64,000 nucleotides of DNA from Bacillus sp. ISL-55 (GTDB lineage Bacteria > Bacillota > Bacilli > Bacillales > Cytobacillaceae), in NCBI RefSeq assembly GCF_018613155.1, contig NZ_JAGGQU010000009.1, forward strand, positions 113,734 to 177,733, in the 5' to 3' direction. This document shows positions 32,986-35,380 of this stretch, piece by piece. Below the pieces are notes generated by a model. That model was given only the letters and a program-made list of their open reading frames with translations. It did no database searches and was not told the origin of the DNA. The position numbers and the translations under genes are program-made. Numbering within the stretch: position 1 is the stretch's first letter; each line of letters opens with the position of its first letter.

Positions 32986-33014
32986 AAAGAGCCAGCATTG
33001 GATGCCGGCTCTTT
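32986..33014. terminator. bidirectional terminator
   Basis: AAAGAGCC and GCAT pair with ATGC and GGCTCTTT around a TGG loop (32986-33014). It separates two convergent genes. Confidence 0.8.
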
Positions 33015-33556
33015 TACTTTTCAACTTCAGCAGCAGTTCCCTTTTGCTTCACCAGGTCTATATATATCCACTTTTTTAATAAAGCAGCCCAAAGAATCAT
33101 GAATAAATGAATTGAATTATTAATAATAAAATGGCGGAAATTTTTCTTGGCGATTTCAGCTTTCATGACTTTAACATCCATTAACTTAGCGAAACTAAAA
33201 GCCTGTAACATTCCTTTCCATCCTCTGTCATATTTAATGAACACTGCTGTTGCCATTGATAGAATAAATGAATAAATTGGTGCTGTTTTGAAGTGTTCTT
33301 TCCAGCTATGCCATCTTTCGATTCCAAATCTGAACTTTCTAAGTATTGATAAGGAGTACATTAGGTTAAGCCCATTTACCAGAATGCCAAGGAATAATGA
33401 GCCAAAATGAGAAATGGGTGTTCCATTTCGAAGTTCATTAAAGAAGTGTGGATGAAAAGGAGGGTGAAAAACGGTATATAATGTTTTTTGTTCCTGTTCA
33501 TAGTGCTCCTTCCACCTTCCCTGATGAAATATCTCTATTAAGATTGACTGATTCAA
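33014..33556 (-). CDS. hypothetical membrane-associated protein
   Basis: A 180-residue frame with about three hydrophobic stretches (residues 50-72, 90-108 and 148-168) between basic loops. The proposed start is TTG 33556 with only a weak GGATAG upstream. The frame is long, ends neatly at a terminator and has plausible composition, but I know no family. Confidence 0.5.
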   Translation of the reverse strand: MNQSILIEIFHQGRWKEHYEQEQKTLYTVFHPPFHPHFFNELRNGTPISHFGSLFLGILVNGLNLMYSLSILRKFRFGIERWHSWKEHFKTAPIYSFILSMATAVFIKYDRGWKGMLQAFSFAKLMDVKVMKAEIAKKNFRHFIINNSIHLFMILWAALLKKWIYIDLVKQKGTAAEVEK

Positions 33557-33588
33557 ATATTACTATCCAAAAGGAATGAACAGGAAAA

Positions 33589-33608
33589 GCCCAATCAAAA
33601 GATTGGGC
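33589..33608 (-). terminator. intrinsic terminator
   Basis: GCCCAATC (33589-33596), loop AAAA, GATTGGGC (33601-33608). The minus-strand tail is TTTTCC. It follows the HTH/F1-beta gene. Confidence 0.8.
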
Positions 33609-33616
33609 CTGCCTCA

Positions 33617-34663
33617 TCAATTTAATTTTCCAATAAAATTTAGCTCATTGGCTTCAGATATACTAGAAGGGTTTTCAAGAATTCTTTTCACATCGTTTAG
33701 TGTATACTCGAGTTTCACGTCCTCTCCCTTCTTGCCAGTGTACGCTTCCGCTACAAAGAAAGGCTGAGTCAAATATGCCTCTAATCTCTCCCCCTGCTGA
33801 TAAATTTGCGACTCGACAGCTGGAAGGCGTTCGATGCCATGAACATTAACGATCGCCCGCAATTCCCTGTACCTGCGTAGAAGCTTTTGCGCTCTTTGTT
33901 GAATGCTATGGTGAACAGGGTCTAAATATGACCCTTCCAGGATGGAGGATGTTGAGTAGATTGGGTTGATTGCAGGATATTTATGGCGTGCTGCAAGGTC
34001 GGCATCGAATTGCCACAAAGTATCAAGGGGGCCATACGGAAGGTCTTCATCGACAGCCTCACCTTTCAAATCCATCAGGAATGTCGTTACACGATGGATT
34101 TCTTTGTCATCGAAAGTTTCCTGCAAGTTGAACATTTCACCTGATATCACATAGGATCTGTCGGCTGTAAGTATGTAATCTCTCTCTGTGCCTTCTTTTA
34201 AAATGACCTTATATGTCTCTTCGATATTGTTTGTTACGTAATCGACCTCATCCAGAATATCGTCAAGCTCTGGGTGATAACCCTTCGGTTTTATAAGAAT
34301 TGTGACATACCCTACCCTTTTCAGTCGGTAAAGCATCTCGGCAAGTACAACTAATTGCCCCATTCCTGGTCGCGCAACGAGCCCAACAGTTTTGCCCTTT
34401 GCAATTGGCGCAAATAAGTCCAAAGTTTTAATCCCTGTTTTAATCATTTCTACACTCTCCCCTCTTAAAATCAGTTCATCCAAACTGCAACCAGCCAGCT
34501 CTGCCAGAGCGACTATCGTCCGTACCTCTGCTCTGCCGACCGGTATTTTGCCCGTAGACAAATTAGAAACGGTGGCCGGTCTCAATCCTACAGATTTAGC
34601 TGCAGATGTCAGGTTGGGCACCTTTTTTCTCAACAACGCAACATTAAGTCTAAGATTTTCCAT
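33617..34663 (-). CDS. XRE-like HTH fused to a degenerate F1-ATPase beta-like domain
   Basis: The 348-residue protein begins with a Cro/XRE-type helix-turn-helix (residues 1-68). IKTGIKTLDLFAPIAKGKTVG at 75-95 matches the start of the ATP-synthase beta nucleotide domain, shown here split as IKTGIKTLDLFAPI and AKGKTVG. The Walker A site is ARPGMGQL instead of GGAGVGKT, so the essential Lys and Thr are gone. Residues 213-330 again follow F1-beta closely (YPAINPIYSTSSIL, LLRRYRELRAI, LTQPFFVAEAYTG). The beta-barrel domain and the catalytic GER segment are absent. It is probably a regulator that binds rather than hydrolyses nucleotide. It diverges from pduL. AAGGAGGTG fixes ATG 34663. Confidence 0.8.
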   Translation of the reverse strand: MENLRLNVALLRKKVPNLTSAAKSVGLRPATVSNLSTGKIPVGRAEVRTIVALAELAGCSLDELILRGESVEMIKTGIKTLDLFAPIAKGKTVGLVARPGMGQLVVLAEMLYRLKRVGYVTILIKPKGYHPELDDILDEVDYVTNNIEETYKVILKEGTERDYILTADRSYVISGEMFNLQETFDDKEIHRVTTFLMDLKGEAVDEDLPYGPLDTLWQFDADLAARHKYPAINPIYSTSSILEGSYLDPVHHSIQQRAQKLLRRYRELRAIVNVHGIERLPAVESQIYQQGERLEAYLTQPFFVAEAYTGKKGEDVKLEYTLNDVKRILENPSSISEANELNFIGKLN

Positions 34664-34687
34664 AAATAGCACCTCCTTACTTTAGAT

Positions 34688-34736
34688 AGTAAAATAAATT
34701 ACTCTATATAGCAATAAATTTTACTCTAAAAAGTAA
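34688..34736. promoter_or_regulatory. paired inverted repeats, candidate operator
   Basis: AGTAA-N6-TTACT (34688-34703) and TTACT-N6-AGTAA (34721-34736) are 16-base dyads with starts 33 bp apart, about three helical turns. They lie directly upstream of the HTH/F1-beta gene and 80-130 bases before pduL, fitting auto-control and control of the divergent gene. Confidence 0.5.
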
Positions 34737-34816: not shown

Positions 34817-35380
34817 ATGATTCCTATTGGTGTATCAAATCGTCATATTCATTTAAAAAGAGAAGATTTAGATAAGCTTTTCGGTGAAGGATATCAGCTC
34901 ACAACTGCTAAAAAACTTTCACAGCCAGGGGAATTTGCTGCGAATGAAACAGTAAGAGTCGTTGGTTCAAAAGGGGAATTTCCCGCAGTCAGGGTTCTTG
35001 GTCCGTTACGGAAGTTTACTCAGCTTGAAATTTCCAACACCGACTCCTTTTCCCTCGGGGTAAAAGCACCGTTAAGAGCTTCAGGGAATCTTGACGGCAC
35101 TCCAGGCATAAAGCTTGTCGGCCCAAAAGGTGCACTGGAAATTCAGGAAGGTGTCATTGTGGCAGAACGTCATATTCATATGACACCAGGTGATGCCGCA
35201 AATTATAATGTCCAGGATGGAGACTATGTAAGTGTTAAGTCTGCAGGTGAAAGAAGCTTAATTTTCAATCAAGTACTCATAAGGGTGAAAGATTCCTACG
35301 CTCTTGATATGCACATTGATACCGATGAAGCTAACGCGGCTGGTCTGCGAACTGGTGACCATATTGAAATAATTAAATAA
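34817..35380 (+). CDS. pduL: phosphate propanoyltransferase PduL
   Basis: A 187-residue PduL-type phosphotransacylase. The two zinc-binding motifs NRHIHL (residues 8-13) and ERHIHM (about 116-121) and the GPLRKFTQLEIS segment near 60 are diagnostic. It moves an acyl group between CoA and phosphate, with propionyl-CoA or acetyl-CoA as substrates. No encapsulation peptide or microcompartment genes are visible, so it is probably a free cytosolic enzyme. AAAGGAGTTTCCAA precedes ATG 34817. Confidence 0.93.
   Translation: MIPIGVSNRHIHLKREDLDKLFGEGYQLTTAKKLSQPGEFAANETVRVVGSKGEFPAVRVLGPLRKFTQLEISNTDSFSLGVKAPLRASGNLDGTPGIKLVGPKGALEIQEGVIVAERHIHMTPGDAANYNVQDGDYVSVKSAGERSLIFNQVLIRVKDSYALDMHIDTDEANAAGLRTGDHIEIIK

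Follow-up and report, generated by a model that had tools for sequence, protein, structure and literature searches.

Enzyme-derived domains are already familiar from one-component regulators. In BirA, PutA and NadR an enzyme fold is joined to a DNA-binding domain that controls the protein's own or related genes; these enzyme-derived autoregulators have retained catalysis, and BirA and PutA are examples of autoregulated bifunctional proteins. Alternate F1-like beta proteins (the TIGR03305, MSC_0618 and MMOB1670 families) are divergent paralogues of the F1-ATPase beta subunit AtpD and are subunits of ATPase complexes. The family described here is likewise a divergent beta paralogue, and it resembles BirA, PutA and NadR in its architecture but, unlike them, has lost the Walker lysine in all 66 sequences counted. 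It also resembles XRE/Cro-C1 regulators with a C-terminal sensor, for example the XRE-cupin type (PMC7901475), in having an N-terminal helix-turn-helix (HTH) and a C-terminal sensor-like domain, and differs from that type in that its C-terminal part descends from F1 beta. Searches of the open-access literature, a body that takes in few subscription papers, listed no regulator with an F1-beta-derived domain, in agreement with the preliminary description of this DNA, made from the sequence alone, which knew of no regulator of this build. To our knowledge, the F1-beta origin of a putative sensor domain is new.

The gene lies at 33617..34663 on the minus strand of the window, by which we mean the whole 64,000-nucleotide stretch of the Bacillus sp. 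ISL-55 genome that was analysed. It encodes a 348-aa protein with relatives in other genomes (P0001), has an ATG start with GGAGG just 5′, and is followed by a terminator-like hairpin (33587..33610, minus strand). Its divergent neighbor is pduL, for phosphate propanoyltransferase (34817..35380, plus strand; NF011652, 281 bits against a cut-off of 209). The normal atpD of this genome is on contig C44; the HTH/F1-beta gene is on C1, outside the atp operon.

Judged by sequence, residues 70-348 (33620..34456, minus strand) descend from F1-ATPase beta, without its barrel; they include the segments IKTGIKTLDLFAPI, YPAINPIYSTSSIL and LTQPFFVAEAYTG. The 348-aa protein scores 31.9 bits with Pfam ATP-synt_ab (cut-off 29.5) and 107.9 bits (E 5.2e-31) with NCBIfam atpD (TIGR01039), far under the equivalog cut-off of 462.85; three alternate-beta NCBIfam models give 98-100 bits (E 1e-28 to 5e-28), and the FliI and V-type A models at most 43 bits. 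The best PDB chain has E 7.6e-27, and among the best 60 of 108 matched PDB sequences the top 58 carry names of F1 or F1-like beta chains, counting one named F1-ATPase only. AtpD of the same genome matches at E 1.2e-17 with 30% identity, and hhalign of 42 family members against 16 AtpD sequences of the phylum aligns 275 columns at E 1.1e-37, with a probability of 99.95%. The E-values from NCBIfam, PDB and hhalign rule out chance or composition as the source of the similarity. Descent from F1 beta in particular is indicated by a QPFxVAExxTG element that the family has retained and that is missing from AtpA and FliI of the same genome.

The family shares with AtpD a core that begins at the P-loop strand, extends to the C-terminal helical domain and contains the adenine-pocket element (QPFxVAExFTG in AtpD). 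Unlike AtpD, it has no DELSEED motif and no beta-barrel, the HTH standing in the barrel's place; the GER segment, which carries the catalytic glutamate of AtpD, is replaced by a short divergent stretch, about 24 residues are missing after the Walker B aspartate, and GQL stands where the AtpD Walker A GxxxxGKT has GKT. Thus the preliminary description was right that an HTH is fused to an AtpD-like domain whose GER region and barrel are gone and whose P-loop has neither Lys nor Thr, and the profile comparison with AtpD that it proposed as a check found F1-beta homology that is not compositional. In a FastTree phylogeny the 39 family rows group together as a single clade, whose branch has a length of 1.61; the tree supports no firm position of this clade relative to AtpD and the AtpA/FliI outgroup, and gives no date for the split from AtpD. 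A dead AtpA companion was also considered and rejected: strong PF00006 matches number 4, 4, 4 and 3 in four genomes, assigned by size and place to AtpA, AtpD, FliI (not in G181) and Rho.

We counted residues in 66 distinct sequences, 65 with the HTH plus one HTH-less paralogue, L072; the fragment L096, the identical copy L010, and L097, L151, L152, L155 and L163 were left out. The former P-loop, ARPGMGQL (residues 97-104; 34352..34375, minus strand), retains the shape of the strand-loop-helix around it. Its Walker Lys position is Gln in 66/66 and its Walker Thr position Leu in 59/66. Ala97, Gly102, Gln103, Glu109, Asp198 and Asp220 are invariant, Arg98 of the loop is found in 64/66, and Asp168 (34160..34162, minus strand), aligned to the Walker B Asp, also in 64/66. 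Four further positions match AtpD residues that, from F1 structures, we take to line the adenine pocket: Tyr229 (33977..33979, minus strand; Tyr or Phe in 66/66) and, within the QPFxVAExxTG element (33740..33760, minus strand), Phe302 (65/66), Ala305 (64/66) and Tyr308 (F, Y, W or H in 61/66). From these counts hydrolysis has almost surely been lost while the base-pocket positions remain, and the domain may bind a nucleotide; the loss of the Walker lysine usually weakens phosphate binding, so that the retained pocket may be mere packing. The dead P-loop stretch changes more slowly than the protein as a whole: between the window and L103, dN is 0.060 for residues 70-115, 0.091 for the whole protein and 0.028 for the HTH, with dS near 1.

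The Cro/C1-type HTH occupies residues 5-65 (34469..34651, minus strand). The window protein alone matches HTH_26 weakly (15.8 bits, cut-off 22); among 42 members, 32 match at E<=0.01, the best at 3.9e-6. Searches with the HTH gave no meaningful match in the PDB and, as to a possible donor, no other match at E<=1 in the genome itself. Its RPATVSNL-TGK stretch is nearly invariant in the 66 sequences, over the same range as the operators that follow.

Between the start codon and pduL are three 16-bp palindromes spaced exactly 22 bp apart: operator 1, TTACTTTTTAGAGTAA (34721..34736); operator 2, TTGCTATATAGAGTAA (34699..34714), over the presumed -35; and operator 3, TTACTATCTAAAGTAA (34677..34692), over the presumed -10 and adjoining the ribosome-binding site, all as read on the minus strand. 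A matrix built from six Mesobacillus sites at two loci (the window and L007), plus their reverse complements, was tested on the 130 bp before 63 other gene copies, leaving out training loci and close kin (the window, L005, L006, L007 and L103), a copy and fragments (L010, L096 and L097), and L151 and L152. It found 156 sites, where dinucleotide shuffles averaged 7.4, with at least one site in 58 of the 63 loci, which are not independent because a single genus contributes several species and the HTH-less L072 is among them. The number of sites per locus is 0 in 5, 1 in 3, 2 in 20, 3 in 27 and 4 in 8; spacing is 22 bp in 60 of 98 cases and 21-25 bp in 91. At many loci site 2 begins TTGC and site 3 reads TTACTAT, placing a -35 and a -10 called by eye 17 bp apart within the operators; a scan with a generic promoter consensus did not call these two elements. 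Palindromic operators are thus conserved at the target promoter, as for an XRE/Cro-C1 regulator.

Five of the 63 loci lack a site in the 130 bp tested. L089 has a site pair and L079 one strict site, each about 1 kb upstream before an acetamidase gene; in L015 and L084 a pair of sites spaced 45-46 bp is found 0.4-0.6 kb upstream, and between these operators and the regulator both loci have a similar ORF of some 60 aa. In L163 no site lies within 0.8 kb. At the Gottfriedia-like loci (L011, L013, L014, L017, L018 and L083) the sites are at about -72 and -93, 5′ of a separate conserved promoter-like stretch, a position that would suit activation as well as repression. The HTH-less paralogue at L072 (6001-6807, genome G034; 41% identity) may have its own ribosome-binding site, and the operator array is still upstream of it.

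We favor, at a probability of roughly 0.6, a one-component autoregulator that acts on tandem operators and whose dead F1-beta core probably serves as a sensor, perhaps for an adenine compound. The inference of autoregulation is strong: a conserved row of sites in its own promoter, together with a DNA-binding domain, makes the protein probably a self-regulating switch. Dimers of the N-terminal HTH would bind the palindromes, TTRC-N8-GTAA, in a row; steps of 22 bp are two helical turns, which puts the operators on one face of the DNA. The dimers would cover the -35 and -10 and so repress their own gene. The inactivated core, having given up hydrolysis, probably binds a small molecule, most likely ADP, AMP, ATP, CoA or a similar adenine compound, and binding would alter DNA affinity or the cooperativity with which the tandem operators are presumably occupied. 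In some lineages neighbors may have come under the same operators, as in an acetamidase-regulator operon and at the HTH-less paralogue. Descent from F1 beta, loss of the Walker lysine and the conserved tandem palindromes in the gene's own promoter are read directly from sequence; palindrome binding by the HTH, dimerization, the sign of regulation and the ligand are inferences. Should the scheme hold, a rotary motor's catalytic subunit, among the most conserved of enzymes, has become a transcription sensor across many genera of Bacilli, and a testable candidate sensor of an adenine nucleotide or cofactor sits at a promoter with its predicted operators already defined. The earlier suggestion that a dead F1 core was turned into a DNA-binding sensor thus stands as to descent, HTH fusion, loss of the Walker lysine and, as the conserved operators suggest, DNA binding; sensing is a prediction, and the domain may still bind a nucleotide, the pocket positions being kept.

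The chief rival of the sensor is an autoregulated bifunctional protein, whose HTH would set only its own level and whose F1-beta-like part would work off the DNA, for example by binding a partner (an F1 subunit or another enzyme). We consider it rather unlikely, although the search for further targets speaks for it. The strict consensus was scanned in 39 genomes carrying the protein, with the reversed pattern as control, and gave 116 strand-counted matches against 75. The 116 fall in 86 distinct places, of which 40 are no more than 500 bp from either end of the gene (28 genomes), 3 at 0.5-1.5 kb (G145, G267 and G010) and 43 elsewhere; from this distribution the excess over control sits at the gene itself, and the 43 are not above control. 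Allowing one mismatch, site and control totals in three genomes were 34/33, 21/30 and 70/97, at or below control for the sites, and these lists hold no second tandem pair. Of six off-promoter places inspected in the window's own genome, three are inside ORFs, one is between convergent genes and two are before genes. One of the last two is a strict palindrome (C6:95812) that precedes an epimerase-like gene by 43 bp, rejected as a conserved target since the site is kept in only 2 of 15 genus copies, its own included (the 15 being loci given for 15 of 19 genomes with a match); the other has one mismatch and lies 142 bp before a gene. The only target found nearly everywhere is the HTH/F1-beta gene itself. 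No conserved operon partner was seen among the neighbors in 56 loci, whose larger clusters are generic (histidine kinase in 17/56 loci, GGDEF in 14/56, alpha/beta hydrolase in 5/56), and a paralogue without HTH behind an operator array also fits a function off the DNA. Against this, the crown barrel, DELSEED and the catch loop have been lost, the latter two being the parts of F1 beta expected to contact gamma, and weaker single sites may exist elsewhere.

Alternatively, the protein may be a local regulator of adjacent metabolic genes (pduL in Mesobacillus, acetamidase elsewhere) with a ligand from that metabolism, such as an acyl-CoA or an amide; this we judge quite improbable. The operators do lie between regulator and pduL, the intergenic region on which the preliminary description proposed ChIP or footprinting, but they hug the regulator start, away from pduL, and pduL adjoins the regulator in only 4 of 55 loci, which also removes it as a conserved partner. 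In 56 regions of roughly 13 kb, one of them a duplicate, a single further tandem pair is above the thresholds, the one before the acetamidase-regulator operon of L089, against 0 in reversed sequence, and acetamidase (identified by Pfam) is directly downstream of the regulator in L068 and upstream in L079. In G010 one strict site lies before the gene for a sodium:dicarboxylate symporter, itself upstream of the regulator. Neighbors vary between genera, however.

A variant in which the F1-beta-like parts form an F1-like ring or partial ring, seating several HTH dimers on the tandem operators and reading energy charge as a DNA-bound oligomer, seems to us very improbable; the three palindromes of the window would match six HTHs.

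Presence is patchy across genomes. A scan of named records, which detects close relatives only, found 15 relatives, in Mesobacillus, Neobacillus, Gottfriedia, Lederbergia, Bacillus sp. and a MAG. Of the 397 genomes sampled in the order, 88 have a match at E<=1e-40, 86 of them at full length, and the family is found in 31 of 135 genera. Within the class, 19 of 398 genomes match at E<=1e-90, 15 of these in other orders, the copies in G681 and G704 being partial (the latter at a contig end); the tally of 75/398 at E<=1e-35 mixes in AtpD itself. The phylum sample has 3 of 398 genomes, two in the window's genus. The protein is under purifying selection, as estimated from dN/dS, which is 0.11 for the window against L005 and 0.08 against L103. 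That it is a functionless, decaying AtpD duplicate fused by chance, as the dead P-loop and the interrupted gene remnants of G234 and G249 might suggest, has a negligible chance of being true, contradicted by dN/dS near 0.1, by the 86 full-length copies in 397 order genomes and by operators conserved across the class. The two remnants, with in-frame stops, are G234:C43:76203-76649 and G249:C11:51205-51612.

Nineteen phage records match, and none of the best 10 covers 80% of the query; in viral contigs 27 pattern matches yielded none confirmed. Plasmid records give 110 matches, the best being a Paenibacillus megaplasmid gene at 55% identity annotated as hypothetical protein; the other 19 of the best 20 are at <=27% identity, 17 of them annotated as atpD or ATP synthase beta and two without annotation. 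The record OR848412.1 (L143), labelled Listeria phage LM 4-14-1, looks bacterial and encodes an extra ATP-synthase beta with an intact P-loop; unlike the present family, this alternate beta retains GGAGVGKS and GER. Next downstream of the HTH/F1-beta gene in the window is a gene at 33014-33556 that encodes 180 aa; its counterparts in L005-L007 encode 289-307 aa, which points to a possible truncation in the window.
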